DNA from: an uncultured bacterium | GTDB lineage: Bacteria > Vulcanimicrobiota > CADAWZ01 | Length of the DNA: 35,819 bases | Direction: 5' to 3' | Assembly (NCBI GenBank): GCA_902790465.1 | Contig: CADASF010000018.1 | Span: 1-35,819, forward strand | Shown: positions 374-26,741 of the stretch, in pieces | Numbering within the stretch: position 1 is the stretch's first letter | Layout of the letters: every line of letters starts with the position of its first letter | Made by a program: the position numbers and the translations under genes | The notes under the pieces: generated by a model | Seen by the model: only the letters and a program-made list of their open reading frames with translations | What the model was told of the DNA's origin: nothing | Databases searched by the model: none

Positions 374-1948
374 CTATAGTACAATTTGCCTTTTTTCATT
401 ATCTGCCACAAAAACGGCTGTAATTACCTTTTTTCCTTCATTTTTATAACTTTCTGCATATCTTTTTAACTGTTCTTGAGCTTCAGCACGCTTTTTATCT
501 ACTTCTTTTAAATTATTTGCAAATTTAAATTCAATAATAATTATCTTATCATCAAATGGAATTACTAAATCAGAACGCCCATCTTTACTGTAAGATTCTT
601 GAAATGAAGTTATACCTGCACCACCACGAAGTAATACTACAAATAAAGAACGATACCAAAATTCATTTTGATTTTTTGAGAAATCATTATAAGGAATTTT
701 TTCTAAAACACTATTAAATATAGTTACTATTTTTTCAAAATTGCAATCTTGTAATGTTTTTATTGATTCCCAAAGACTATTTCCCAATGGTGCATAATTT
801 TCTATTTGATAAATATCTCTCAAATACAAACGACTTATTGAACTAAGGACTTCTAAATTTGGATAATCAAGAGTTAAAATTTCTTTGTCATTCTTTGCTT
901 CCCATTTTTCAATAGTCAAATAACCTGCTTGGTATAGGAAACTTTCAGAAGTCGCTCTTTCAATTTCATGTTCATCAGCAAAATCTGCTTCTACTTCTAT
1001 ATGTCTAAATTTATCAATATTTGTTATTTTATGTTTTCTAAAATAATCATGAATAAATGAAGGAGAACCTGATAAATACCAATAATTTCTAAATTTATGT
1101 TTATCAAAAAAATTTAATACAGAAAATGGATTATATACTCTTGTTATTCCATCAAATGAAAAACCATCATAATACTGTTTTATTTTAGCAAGTAATTCTT
1201 CTCTGTTCATTGATATTTTTTTTTCAGTATTGTCAAGCCACTCATCAAAATTTTCTTCAAGCTCCTGTTGAGTATATCCAACGATATCATCATATTTTTC
1301 GTCCATAGATATATCATTTAAATTGTTTAATCCAGAAAATACACCTGCTTTGCTAAATTTTGAAACACCTGTTAGCATTACAAATTTTAAATATTCACTG
1401 CAACCTTTTAAAACAAGATAAAATGACCGCAAAAATTCTCGCATTTCTTCTGCTTTTTCTAAATTGTTTATATTATCTGTTATTGGTTTGTCATATTCAT
1501 CTATAAGTACAACAACCTGCCCAAATTGTTTATATAATCTTATTATTAGATTAGATAAAGCAATATCTGCATTGTCGTCTAAATCCATTGTCAAATCATT
1601 TATAGTTAAATAATTTTTAAATTGACTAATAATATAATAATTTAATTGTTCAGAACTATCGTAAGATTTCGAAAATCCCATATCCAATTTAATAACTATA
1701 TTTGGGTGTTTAGCTTGTTCTTTTACCCATTCTTCAGCATAAAGACCTTTAAATAATTCAGCTTTACCTTTAAACATTGCCTCTAATGTTGACAAAGTTA
1801 AAGATTTTCCAAAACGACGAGGACGAGAAAGAAAATAATATTCACCATTTTCTATTAAATTTAAAATTTGTTTTGTTTTATCAACATAAAGGTAATTCTT
1901 TAGACGAATATTTTCAAAATTTTGAATACCTATAGGTAATTTCTGCAT
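374..1948 (-). CDS. AAA-ATPase-like / PD-(D/E)XK nuclease-domain protein (DUF1703 family), copy 1
   Basis: This 524-residue protein has the two-domain layout of the AAA-ATPase_like plus PDDEXK_9 family. The N-terminal ATPase-like part has a P-loop variant, RPRRFGKS, at residues 42-49 and a Walker B-like LIDEYD at 148-153. The C-terminal part has a PD-(D/E)XK signature: D460 in GRSD, then E473 and K475 in IEFKFA. The biological role of the family is unproven; mobility or defence is often suspected. It lies 14 nt after hsdR and 25 nt before hsdM, so it is probably cotranscribed with them. A strong GGAG precedes the ATG. A close paralogue lies at 19876-21507, and the similarity reaches into the ribosome binding site. 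The family assignment is firm; the function is not. Confidence 0.88.
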   Translation of the reverse strand: MQKLPIGIQNFENIRLKNYLYVDKTKQILNLIENGEYYFLSRPRRFGKSLTLSTLEAMFKGKAELFKGLYAEEWVKEQAKHPNIVIKLDMGFSKSYDSSEQLNYYIISQFKNYLTINDLTMDLDDNADIALSNLIIRLYKQFGQVVVLIDEYDKPITDNINNLEKAEEMREFLRSFYLVLKGCSEYLKFVMLTGVSKFSKAGVFSGLNNLNDISMDEKYDDIVGYTQQELEENFDEWLDNTEKKISMNREELLAKIKQYYDGFSFDGITRVYNPFSVLNFFDKHKFRNYWYLSGSPSFIHDYFRKHKITNIDKFRHIEVEADFADEHEIERATSESFLYQAGYLTIEKWEAKNDKEILTLDYPNLEVLSSISRLYLRDIYQIENYAPLGNSLWESIKTLQDCNFEKIVTIFNSVLEKIPYNDFSKNQNEFWYRSLFVVLLRGGAGITSFQESYSKDGRSDLVIPFDDKIIIIEFKFANNLKEVDKKRAEAQEQLKRYAESYKNEGKKVITAVFVADNEKRQIVL

Positions 1949-19739: not shown

Positions 19740-19864
19740 GGAGGCTGTGAAAAAATTAAATAGAATTATATTTTTTTTTCACAACTCCATATAAATAGGA
19801 GCATTTAAGCTCCTTCGAAAAATAAGCTCCTTAATGAAATTAAGGAGAAAAAAATGCGAAGGAG
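19740..19864 (+). promoter_or_regulatory. Structured leader with competing hairpins over the nuclease ribosome binding site
   Basis: This segment fills most of the 294-nt gap between hydE and the second nuclease gene. An imperfect long inverted repeat spans 19740-19788 (GGAG plus TGTGAAAAAA against its mirror). Hairpin A pairs AGGAGC (19797-19802) with GCTCCT (19809-19814). Hairpin B pairs CTCCTTAAT (19827-19835) with ATTAAGGAG (19839-19847). Pairing C joins CTCCTTCG (19810-19817) to CGAAGGAG (19857-19864), which contains the ribosome binding site. A and C exclude each other, while B fits inside C. Confidence 0.5.
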
Positions 19865-19875
19865 AAAAAATATAT

Positions 19876-21507
19876 ATGCAAGATTTACCAATAGGTATTC
19901 AAACATTTGAAGATATTAGAAATGAAGATTTTGTTTATGTTGATAAAACTAAACATTTATTTAATCTTGTTCGAAAAAAAGGAGTTTATTTTCTTTCTCG
20001 TCCTCGTCGTTTTGGAAAATCACTTACAATATCGACATTAGAAGCGATGTTTCAGGGCAAAGCTGAATTATTCAAAGGTCTTTATGCTGAGGAATGGGTA
20101 AAAGAAAAAGCTAAACACCCTAACCCAGTTATAAAACTTGATATGAGTGGTTTAGGAAATTATACAAATATAAGTGAATTAAGTTCTGCCCTTATTGATT
20201 ATCTTGGAGAGATTATAGATGATTATAATTTAAATATTCAATTAAAAGAAAATGCAGGTCGTATATTTGCTAAAATAATAAAAGAATTGTATAAAAAATT
20301 CGGTAAAGTTGTTCTGCTTATTGATGAATATGATAAACCAATTACAGATAATATAAACGATTTAGAAAAAGCAAATGAAATAAGAGATTTTTTTAGAAAA
20401 TTTTATGGTATTCTAAAAAATTCAAGTACAATAGATAATTTACATTTTGTATTTATAACAGGAGTGTCAAAATTTAGCAAAGCTGGCATATTTTCTTGTT
20501 TGAATAATTTAGAAGACATATCAATGACAAGAGAATATGCAGATATAGTTGGCTATACACAACAAGAACTTGAAGAAAATTTTTCTGATTGGCTTGAAAA
20601 AACAGAAAAAAAATTATCTTTTGATAGAAAAGAGTTACTTGCTACAATAAAAAAATATTACGACGGTTTTTCATTTGACGGAATAGTAAGAGTATATAAT
20701 CCATTTTCTGTATTAAATTTCTTTAAACAAGGAAATTTTGGTAATTATTGGTATAATTCTGCACTTTTTTTTCCTCCTTCGAAGAAGGAGCTAAATGTTT
20801 CGTCATTTCTTGCTAAATACTTAAAAAGCCATAAAATCAAAGCACCAAAAGAATATACACAGAAAAAAGTATATGAAGATTTCACAAATTCTCACGAAAT
20901 AGAAAGTACAAGTGTAGAGAGTTTTTTATATCAAGCAGGTTATTTGACAATTTCAGAGAGAAAAGGCAACATACTTATTCTTGATTATCCAAATGAAGAA
21001 GTAAAAAGTTCAATGGACAGGCTTTTTCTTGAAAATTTTTACAATATACAAGATGATGCAGAATTTAGTAATGATATTTGGGAATCTTTGGAAGCAGAAA
21101 ATATTCCACAGGTGGTGAGTATTTTTAACGAGTCATTAAAAGCTATTCCCGAAAACATATTCGCTCCTTCTATCGAAGGAGAAAAAAAACAGGATGATTA
21201 CAAAGATAGAGATGAATCTTGGTATCGTTCATTATTTTTGATGTTACTTAGTGGTGCAAAAATAACATATTTTTCAGAAGTTCATACTTTCAGAGGTCGT
21301 CCAGATGTAGTTGTATCGTTTAGAGACAAATTAGTAGTAGTTATCGAATTTAAATTTGCCCTAACTTCAAAAGATGTAAATAAAAAGCGAAAAGAAGGAG
21401 AAGAACAGATAAAATCGAGAGATTATGCTTCAGCTTATAAGTCGACAAAAAAAATAATAACAGCTGTTTTTGTCGCAGATGATGAAAAACGACAAATTAT
21501 AATCTAA
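19876..21507 (+). CDS. AAA-ATPase-like / PD-(D/E)XK nuclease-domain protein (DUF1703 family), copy 2
   Basis: The start at 19876 (543 residues) is chosen because GGAG lies 11 nt upstream and the protein then aligns from residue 1 with the paralogue at 374-1948; an upstream ATG at 19834 would add 14 unrelated residues read through the leader hairpins. The P-loop RPRRFGKS (42-49), LIDEYD (148-153) and nuclease residues D477, E491 and K493 (IEFKFA) are intact. It has two segments that the paralogue lacks, about 11 residues near ALFFPPSKKELN and about 12 near FAPSIEGEKKQDD. Both coincide with CTCCTTC/GAAGGAG palindromes. It stands alone between hydE and mnmA. Function is unknown. Confidence 0.88.
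   Translation: MQDLPIGIQTFEDIRNEDFVYVDKTKHLFNLVRKKGVYFLSRPRRFGKSLTISTLEAMFQGKAELFKGLYAEEWVKEKAKHPNPVIKLDMSGLGNYTNISELSSALIDYLGEIIDDYNLNIQLKENAGRIFAKIIKELYKKFGKVVLLIDEYDKPITDNINDLEKANEIRDFFRKFYGILKNSSTIDNLHFVFITGVSKFSKAGIFSCLNNLEDISMTREYADIVGYTQQELEENFSDWLEKTEKKLSFDRKELLATIKKYYDGFSFDGIVRVYNPFSVLNFFKQGNFGNYWYNSALFFPPSKKELNVSSFLAKYLKSHKIKAPKEYTQKKVYEDFTNSHEIESTSVESFLYQAGYLTISERKGNILILDYPNEEVKSSMDRLFLENFYNIQDDAEFSNDIWESLEAENIPQVVSIFNESLKAIPENIFAPSIEGEKKQDDYKDRDESWYRSLFLMLLSGAKITYFSEVHTFRGRPDVVVSFRDKLVVVIEFKFALTSKDVNKKRKEGEEQIKSRDYASAYKSTKKIITAVFVADDEKRQIII
20774..20790. repeat. Palindromic element within the nuclease reading frame (first)
   Basis: CTCCTTC (20774-20780) and GAAGGAG (20784-20790) flank a GAA loop. 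It lies in an 11-residue in-frame segment absent from the paralogue. The following GCTAAATG mirrors CATTTAAGC of the leader (19802-19810), which suggests a shared element. Confidence 0.6.
21164..21181. repeat. Palindromic element within the nuclease reading frame (second)
   Basis: CTCCTTC (21164-21170) and GAAGGAG (21175-21181) flank a TATC loop, followed by an A-run like that after the leader copy (19857-19870). It lies in a 12-residue segment absent from the paralogue. Confidence 0.6.
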
Positions 21508-23816: not shown

Positions 23817-26741
23817 CTAATCCCAATAAATATGTGGATAATGTATAAACTCACTCAAATCTATTTTTCTATCACTATTTGAAACATTTACAGATTTTAA
23901 AGAAGTACAACCATCAAAAATAGCATAACCTTTTGTTATATCACTATCTGGAATTGTTACTGATGTTAAAGAGGTACAACCTTCAAAAGCATTATATCCA
24001 ATGCTTTTTACACTATCTGGAATTGTTATAGATGTCAAAGAACTGCAATCTTTAAAAGCTTCCCTTCCTATTTCTATAACACTATTTGGAATTATTACAG
24101 ATTTTAAAGATGTGCAACCTTCAAAAGCATAATCTCTAATGCTTTTTACACTATCTGGAATTGCTACAGATGTTAAAAAATTACAACCCTTAAAAACATA
24201 ACATCTTATTTCTGTAATTTTATATTTATTGCCATTGTAAGTATAAGTTGAAGGAATAACTAAGTCTGTAACTTCTTTTCCATTTTTATCTATTATTTTG
24301 TTTTCTTTAACTTCATATCCCAATTTTTTGAGAACTTCTTTATTTAATTCAACTTCAAATTCTTTTGAATAATTCAAAGATTTTAAAGAATCACATCCTA
24401 AAAAAGCATTTACCTGTATTTCTTTAATATTTTTTGGAATATTTATTTCTTTTAGAGATGTACAATCTTCAAATGCACTTTCTCCAATGTATTTAATATT
24501 TTCTGAAAGTTGTACTCTTTCTAAAGAAATACAATTACGAAATGCATATTTATCTATTACTTTTACACTTTTGGGAATTGTTATAGATGTTAAAGAAGTG
24601 CAACCCCAAAAAGCACTACGTCCAATGCTTGTAACACTATTTGGAATTGTTACAGATGTTAAAGAAGTACAACGATTAAATAAATTATCTCCAATGTACT
24701 TAATATTTTCTGAAAGTTGTACTCTTTCTAAAGAAGTACAATTACTAAAAGTCCATCCTTCTATTTCTGTAACGCTATTTGGAATTGTTATAGATGTTAA
24801 AGAAGAACAACAATTAAATAAACTACTATTTATTTTAGTAATACTATTTGGAATTACCAATGATGTTAAAGAACTGCAACCACTAAATACACTATGTTCC
24901 ATTCTTGTAACACTATTTGGAATTTGTACAGATGTTAAAGAAGTACAATTACCAAAAGCACCTCTTTCTATTTCTACAACACTATTTGGAATTTGTACAG
25001 ATGTTAAAGAACTACAACCACCAAAAACACCAACTTCTATTTTTGTAACACTATTCGGAATAGTAATAGATGTCAAAGAATCACAATTACTAAAAGCACA
25101 ACTTCCTATTTCTATTACACTATCTGGAATATTTAAAGATGTTAAAGAAGTACAACCACTAAAAGCACCTTCTCCAATAGTTGTAATACTATCTGGAATT
25201 GTTATAGAATTTAAAAAAATGCACTCTTTAAACACTTCATTTCCTATTTCTGTAATTTTATATTTATTACCATTGTAAGTATAAGTTGCAGGAATAACTA
25301 AATCTGTAACGTCTTCTCCATTTTTTCGTAAACAAAATGCATTTACATAATTTCCATTTTTTAATAAATAATCATCTTGTTCTATATCATATCCCAACTG
25401 CTTTAAAACTTGTTTATCAATAGCAACTTCTTCAAACTCTTTTGAATAATTTAAAGATTTTAAAGAATCACATCCTCGAAAAGCATTTAACCTTATTTCT
25501 TTAATATTTTTTGGAATATTTATTTCTTTTAAAGAAGTACAACCATCAAAGGCACTTTCTCCTATACACTCAATATTTCCTAAAAATTGTACTTTTTCTA
25601 AAGAACTACAAGAACGAAAAACACTATCTCCTATTTCTGTAAGACTATTTGAAATAATGACATATTTTAAAGAAGTACATCCCTCAAAAGCACTACCTCC
25701 AATGCTTGTAACACTATTTGGAATTATTATAGATTTTAAAGAAGTACATCTCCAAAAAGCATTACCTCCAATACTTGTAACACTATCTGGAATTGTTACA
25801 GAAGTTAAAAATTTATTATCCATAAAAACATCATAATCAATTCCAGTAATTTTATATTTATTGCCATTATAAGTATAAGTTGCAGGAATAACTAAGTCTA
25901 TAACTTCTTTTCCATTTTTTCTTAGAGGTTCTATTCTAATAAATGTTCTTATACAAGTGATTTTATCAAATGTATCATCCTCATCATCCTTTAAATTTAC
26001 ATCATATCCCAAGTGCTTTAAAACTTGTTTATCAATAGTAACTTCAAATTCTTTTGAATAATTTAAAGGTTTTAAAGAATCACATCCTCGAAAAGCATTT
26101 AAATTTATCTTTTTAATATTTTTTGGAATATTTATTTCTTTTAGAGAAGTACAACCTTCAAAAGCCCTTTCTCCTATTTCTGTAATACAATTAGGAAGCT
26201 CTACGGATGTTAAAGATGTACATTCCAAAAAAGCAATTTTTTCTATTTCTGTTAGACCATCTGGAATTGTTACTGATATTAAAGAAGTACAATCCCCAAA
26301 AACACCAATTCCTATTTTTGTAATAGAATTTGAAATTTGTACAGATGTTAAAGATGTACAATCATAAAAAGCAAATTCTCCAAGTTCAGTAACACTATTT
26401 GGAATTGTTATAGAATTTAGAGAACTACAAAATTGAAAAGCCTCACTCCCTATTTTTGTAACACTATCTGGAATTATTACTGTTCTCAAAGAACTACAAA
26501 ATTGAAAAGCCTCACTCCCTATTTTTGTAACACTATCTGGAATTGTTACTGATCTCAAAGACCAACAAGAAGAAAAAACTTTTTCACCTATTTCTGTAAT
26601 TTTATATTCACTGCCATTGTAAGTATAAGTTGAAGGAATAATTAAGTCTGTAACTTCTTTTCCATTGTTATCTATTATTTTGTTATTTTTAATTTCATAT
26701 CCCAGTTGTTCGAGAGTATTATTATTTAATTTAACATCCAT
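23817..26741 (-). CDS. BspA-like leucine-rich repeat protein (LRR_5), four-module
   Basis: The 974-residue protein is built almost wholly of about 23-residue repeats of the Treponema pallidum/BspA type (CTSLTSVTIPNSVTEIGxxAF). Four larger modules start near residues 1, 231, 438 and 796, each with a header of the form VLKxLGYE and then TYTYNGNKYKITEIG. Such proteins form curved solenoids that often bind host or bacterial surface ligands. Unlike many of them, no signal peptide is present at the N-terminus and no sorting motif at the end (HYPHIYWD), so location is uncertain. GGAGG lies 6 nt before the ATG. It is a single-gene unit, downstream of the glgP terminator. The internal DNA repeats make it prone to recombination. 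Confidence 0.9.
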   Translation of the reverse strand: MDVKLNNNTLEQLGYEIKNNKIIDNNGKEVTDLIIPSTYTYNGSEYKITEIGEKVFSSCWSLRSVTIPDSVTKIGSEAFQFCSSLRTVIIPDSVTKIGSEAFQFCSSLNSITIPNSVTELGEFAFYDCTSLTSVQISNSITKIGIGVFGDCTSLISVTIPDGLTEIEKIAFLECTSLTSVELPNCITEIGERAFEGCTSLKEINIPKNIKKINLNAFRGCDSLKPLNYSKEFEVTIDKQVLKHLGYDVNLKDDEDDTFDKITCIRTFIRIEPLRKNGKEVIDLVIPATYTYNGNKYKITGIDYDVFMDNKFLTSVTIPDSVTSIGGNAFWRCTSLKSIIIPNSVTSIGGSAFEGCTSLKYVIISNSLTEIGDSVFRSCSSLEKVQFLGNIECIGESAFDGCTSLKEINIPKNIKEIRLNAFRGCDSLKSLNYSKEFEEVAIDKQVLKQLGYDIEQDDYLLKNGNYVNAFCLRKNGEDVTDLVIPATYTYNGNKYKITEIGNEVFKECIFLNSITIPDSITTIGEGAFSGCTSLTSLNIPDSVIEIGSCAFSNCDSLTSITIPNSVTKIEVGVFGGCSSLTSVQIPNSVVEIERGAFGNCTSLTSVQIPNSVTRMEHSVFSGCSSLTSLVIPNSITKINSSLFNCCSSLTSITIPNSVTEIEGWTFSNCTSLERVQLSENIKYIGDNLFNRCTSLTSVTIPNSVTSIGRSAFWGCTSLTSITIPKSVKVIDKYAFRNCISLERVQLSENIKYIGESAFEDCTSLKEINIPKNIKEIQVNAFLGCDSLKSLNYSKEFEVELNKEVLKKLGYEVKENKIIDKNGKEVTDLVIPSTYTYNGNKYKITEIRCYVFKGCNFLTSVAIPDSVKSIRDYAFEGCTSLKSVIIPNSVIEIGREAFKDCSSLTSITIPDSVKSIGYNAFEGCTSLTSVTIPDSDITKGYAIFDGCTSLKSVNVSNSDRKIDLSEFIHYPHIYWD

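Follow-up and report, generated by a model that had tools for sequence, protein, structure and literature searches.

Short palindromes inside a protein-coding gene raise the question of whether they belong to the history of that gene or were brought in by a mobile element. We addressed it in a stretch of 35,819 nucleotides from an uncultured bacterium (hereafter the window), where a gene at 19876–21507 on the plus strand encodes an AAA-ATPase_like (PF09820) and PDDEXK_9 (PF08011) protein. The open reading frame has 557 codons, and the ATG at 19876 is its likely true start. A first, sequence-only reading had located two CTCCTTC/GAAGGAG palindromes in this frame, and its coordinates were exact: at site 1 the palindrome CTCCTTCgaaGAAGGAG occupies 20774–20790 (CTCCTTC 20774–20780, GAAGGAG 20784–20790) and at site 2 the palindrome CTCCTTCtatcGAAGGAG occupies 21164–21181 (CTCCTTC 21164–21170, GAAGGAG 21175–21181). 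The half-site motif has eight matches in the window, versus 2.8 expected. The extra residues that this reading had attributed to the two sites were recovered by alignment with a window paralogue (374–1948, minus strand), which is 59% identical to the host gene and empty at both sites; there are 11 at site 1 and 12 at site 2, the latter becoming 13 against closer paralogues. In the DNA, the copy at site 1 (20764–20802, minus strand, opposite to the gene) places 39 nt where the empty site has 6 nt, a net gain of 33 nt or 11 codons, and the copy at site 2 (21151–21192, plus strand, in gene orientation) places 42 nt in place of 3 nt, a net gain of 39 nt or 13 codons. An example of a peptide spanning an insert is ENIFAPSIEGEKK. 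The predicted structure of the protein has a mean pLDDT of 43, and no reading given below rests on it. A lone half-site in the paralogue (1059–1065) is indeed present in the sequence, but it consists of ordinary S-P-S-F codons (TCT CCT TCT TTT) of a kind found at many empty sites, and we rejected it as a remnant of insertion or excision.

The palindromes of this gene belong to a larger family of hairpin-forming sequences roughly 30–60 nt long. Taking reversed-pattern controls as background, CTCCTTC-N0-30-GAAGGAG was found 26 times in the window's own genome (G000, 3.05 Mb in 121 contigs) and never in the control; the relaxed pattern CTCCTT-N3-12-AAGGAG gave 69 sites versus one, and a wider core, AAGCTCCTT-N3-20-AAGGAG, 36 copies versus one. 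The palindrome first noticed is thus genuine, but it represents a single subtype within a broader family whose tip varies, rather than the whole element, and a subtype placed at start codons had been overlooked. The core can be written AAG-CTCCTT-(variable paired tip)-AAGGAG-A-rich, in which the base of the hairpin is constant (CTCCTT/AAGGAG) and the tip changes while remaining base-paired (C..G, GC..GC, AAT..ATT, AAAA..TTTT, AGC..GCT and others). Among the 50 sites listed of the 69 matches to CTCCTT-N3-12-AAGGAG, the first inner tip pair, whose complementarity the search pattern does not demand, is complementary in 27 of 32 distinct tips versus 9.5 expected, a value reached in 0 of 20,000 permutations, and the second in 18 of 29 versus 7.5 expected. 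Outer arms often enclose the core (for example GCATTT..AAATGC or CAATT..AATTG), being complementary in some copies only. The element is polar, with a left flank that is typically ATTTAAG or CAATTAAG and an A-rich right flank, and aligned copies have these flanks in common.

The family has a narrow distribution. The core with its A-tail is present in two of 149 genomes of the phylum, with 30 copies in the own genome, one in a congener (G001) and none in the other 147. The CTTC subtype is absent from this congener and reaches 0–3 copies in other relatives, and its oriented form gave no exact match in a wider contig database that may lack records very close to the own genome. The element family is expanded in its own species and rare in the congener.

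The clearest filled and empty pair, judged by sequence comparison, lies outside the AAA-ATPase family. The PDDEXK_2 (Rpn-like) gene L020 (G000:C49) contains an in-frame insert of 45 nt, AAAGAGAGGAGCATTGAAGCTCCTTCTACGAAGGAGAAAACATAT, preceded by ACAATGTAT and followed by ATGCAA, with the junction ACAATG^TATATGCAA; three empty homologues, each about 92% identical (L208, from the congener, L209 and L211), read ACAATGTATATGCAA at that point. The junctions of L020 share a TATA repeat, which could be a target duplication; no consistent target-site duplication accompanies the other copies, and none is clear at sites 1–3 of the AAA-ATPase genes. In a separate case, a CTCCTT..AAGGAG-like hairpin of varying tip stands at one and the same position in the N-termini of HsdS genes (L024, L257, L258) of the two species, and no empty site was seen in either, which weighs against the mobile-element reading and leaves the L024 copy as no more than a possible insertion.

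In the AAA-ATPase/PDDEXK_9 family, where the AAA-ATPase_like profile matches 36 times in the own genome and 26 times in the congener, both extra segments of the window gene are missing from most other paralogues of the two genomes. The aligned homologues thus include both filled and empty states, among the paralogues and in the congener. In the protein alignment, site 1 is filled in three paralogues (the window gene, L016 and L011), whereas about 40 are empty there, among them the nearest relatives in the congener. Copies at site 2 occupy two slightly offset points: 2a in the window gene, L147_9838 and L018 (L049 is among the genes empty there), and 2b in L007, L022 and L016, with a nested copy in L147_12542 and a decayed copy in the congener gene L156. 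Towards the C-terminus, L017 and L019 carry a copy at a third site, where L139 has a degenerate one. Net gains at the DNA junctions are 33, 39, 30, 36 and 27 nt, all of them stop-free multiples of three, although ascertainment favours intact open reading frames and makes this a biased test of frame retention. In L147_12542 (L147/L206) a 39-nt copy sits, in frame, in the loop of another copy, and its close relative L016 there has only the outer copy. At site 3 of L141 there is an 18-residue in-frame insert formed by a different, GC-rich palindrome (GCCCCacaaGGGGGC), suggesting from its sequence that a second family of in-frame palindromes may exist.

A tree of the paralogues built without the insert columns pairs the window gene with an empty gene of the congener (100/94) as its sister, and likewise L016, which has copies at two sites, with the empty L031 (100/99). 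With filled and empty genes as sisters, either gains that postdate the split of the species or conversions are required. The inserts at site 1 are near-identical in three separated clades, and this suggests that they spread by gene conversion between paralogues. The additional replacement of a few neighbouring bases at site 1 and at site 2 would fit conversion of a variable loop no less well than a fresh insertion.

The data thus comprise dispersal far above the control, a limited distribution, filled and empty pairs, an exact gain of 45 nt, nesting, and in-frame, stop-free insertion at several sites. We consider it very likely that the palindromes form a mobile family, and highly probable that the copies represent a genus-limited, non-autonomous short palindromic mobile element which behaves like the Rickettsia palindromic elements (RPEs) and REP elements and belongs to neither family. 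Its movement would be a transposition-like event needing an enzyme supplied in trans. Copies entering open reading frames would be tolerated because they are multiples of three and, as the open frame implies, would be read through as short hydrophilic peptides such as APSIEGEKK. Within the AAA-ATPase/PDDEXK_9 genes, gene conversion probably spread some of the filled sites later on.

Many copies lie at start codons. The left part of this class A subtype, AGGAGCATTKAAGCTCC, occurs 19 times in the own genome, twice in the congener and not at all in three other relatives or in the control. In about 15 of the 21 copies the end meets a TATATG start codon, and the genes that follow come from about seven unrelated families (AAA-ATPase/PDDEXK_9, HsdS, Rpn-type, BspA-like, MANVxDY, MRISDDK and another), the BspA-like and Rpn-type labels being assigned by eye or from one Pfam match. 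The subtype ends in AAGGAG-A-rich-TATAT immediately before the ATG, with the right arm AAGGAG in the place of a Shine-Dalgarno (SD) sequence, and the left flanks often retain an apparent older SD. The host gene of the window has such a copy at 19797–19875 (plus strand, AGGAGCATTTAAGCTCCTTCG ... CGAAGGAGAAAAAATATAT), directly 5' of its likely start, and the right arm GAAGGAG (19858–19864) stands 11 nt 5' of the ATG, in the SD position. The same core had been reported for this leader, and half-sites at 19810 and 19858 bear this out; it is, however, not a single core but a hairpin nested in a hairpin, with a second copy (AAGCTCCTTAATGAAATTAAGGAG, 19824–19847, plus strand) in the loop of the first, the same arrangement as in the in-frame nested L147_12542. 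No known RNA family matched the leaders or repeats, and the window gave one tRNA only. Elsewhere in the window, an open reading frame of 974 codons (23817–26741, minus strand) has about 24 units of 69 nt and is leucine-rich and BspA-like by eye; a similar-looking protein, L179/L230 of the congener, has a class A copy in its leader.

It is known that hairpins in leaders, such as RNA thermometers, can sequester the SD sequence by pairing it with an anti-SD before the start codon. Like these, our leaders have a CTCCTT able to pair with the AAGGAG that precedes the start codon; unlike them, the unit is repeated, apparently mobile and common to unrelated genes. RNA folding predicts two mutually exclusive hairpins, AGGAGC..GCTCCT and CTCCTT..AAGGAG, which hide or expose AAGGAG, and the predicted accessibility of the SD ranges between copies from 0.00 to about 0.9. 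The leader subtype probably supplies its own SD, which would make an insertion between the old SD and the start codon tolerable, and the two alternative hairpins could set the level of translation. That SD-bearing insertions have a real effect on translation is conceivable, although we lean against it. A fuller model, which we offer only tentatively, would see a mobile ribosome-binding-site hairpin that inserts as TAT^ATG between old SD and start, brings its own AAGGAG at the proper spacing and sets translation through exclusive hairpins tuned by the tip, with the copies inside proteins as a low-cost by-product. Should the leader subtype act as its sequence suggests, an SD-carrying selfish repeat would be an unusual route to harmless or regulatory insertion at start codons; we recognised no similar start-codon or SD-bearing miniature element in titles and abstracts of the open-licence literature.

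Among known systems, RPEs are the closest behavioural match, REP elements the closest in size and MITEs in non-autonomy. RPEs (Ogata et al. 2000) are 105–146 bp long, occur between genes and in frame inside protein genes (reviewed in PMC2229807, PMC10969869) and have CGTC as end tag (PMC3733652). The resemblance to them had been noted from the window, together with the difference in sequence, and it holds in the copy number far above the control, the filled and empty sites, both orientations and the occurrence of intergenic and in-frame copies: both kinds are dispersed palindromic repeats that keep a stop-free open frame within genes. The motif was far above chance frequency, and the same residues encoded by unrelated DNA were not encountered in other species. 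However, net insertions here are 27–45 nt (9–15 residues) compared with the 105–146 bp and longer peptides of RPEs, the sequence is unrelated, the CGTC end tag is absent from the aligned copies, the tip of the palindrome is variable and start codons are the location of many copies; moreover, the host organism appears unrelated to Rickettsia. Bacterial MITEs (NEMIS/Correia, ERIC, RUP) are about 100–200 bp long, with terminal inverted repeats and some in-frame fusions (PMC2229807). Our element shares with them non-autonomy, a TA-rich insertion point at a clean site and some in-frame fusions, whereas here the palindrome is almost the whole element and the outer ends form no clear terminal inverted repeats. 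In-frame palindromic insertions are best known from Rickettsia, and short, clean cases whose empty sites occur within one genome are of value; with paralogous filled and empty pairs, a congener and a nested copy, the cost and fate of such insertions become testable.

REP elements are hairpins of 20–40 nt, tagged with GTAG or CGTC, present in high copy, single or paired, and occasionally intragenic (PMC3733652). A narrower form of the mobile-element reading, which we judge unlikely, is that our copies are REP-type hairpins mobilised by a RAYT or IS200-type HUH enzyme. The hairpin size class of 20–40 nt, the bulged hairpin, the high copy number and dispersal, the single, paired, tandem and nested copies and the occasional intragenic ones are all REP-like, but neither a GTAG nor a CGTC tag is present, no RAYT was found and placement at TATATG start codons is strong. 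No mobilising enzyme could be linked to the element in a search for Y1 transposases in the 121-contig assembly. The own genome has three Y1_Tnp matches, all fragments and two of them at contig ends, and none is flanked by the element, although such a fragmented assembly could miss an intact gene. The congener has an intact IS200-like Y1 transposase (L260) with a GAGCC..GGCTC end hairpin unrelated to the element, and on these matches we set RAYT/IS200 aside as the likely carrier. Membership therefore fails for RPEs because of length and the CGTC tag, and for REPs because of the GTAG tag.

Less probable still is an origin without transposition, in which the palindromes began as an SD-sequestering regulatory hairpin in the leader of a duplicating gene family and reached the genes by recombination or gene conversion of leader hairpin and variable loops. 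Leader and in-gene copies do share their sequence and even the nested form, L199 and L198 fuse leader sequence with regions that lie downstream in genes of that family, and the near-identical filling of site 1 in distant clades suggests conversion between paralogues; yet it is an unrelated PDDEXK_2 gene that shows the exact 45-nt gain, copies stand in leaders of genes from about seven unrelated families, others are intergenic and outside such genes, and the site 1 copy is in opposite orientation. Finally, that terminators and purine-rich codons give apparent palindromes by chance is extremely improbable and already refuted by controls of 0–1, for although two of the 26 palindromes (L003 and L013) have T-runs after the hairpin and look like ordinary terminators, copies share flanks and form filled and empty pairs.

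Two intergenic loci deserve mention alongside the mobile element favoured here. Between pgk and gap (L014/L158) there is a longer repeat with AGGGCGTGTTG-type ends, whose cores differ between the species while the flanks are 96–99% identical, as if the core had been swapped; we rejected the congener locus as a simple empty site, as the element is the core of the longer repeat and the congener repeat has another core. In L021 (3840–4360), a block of about 150 nt made of several different palindromes follows the end of a gene, is absent from the congener (L161) and is flanked by a direct repeat of the last bases of that gene (AAAACTTAGATGGACTGAATAAA).
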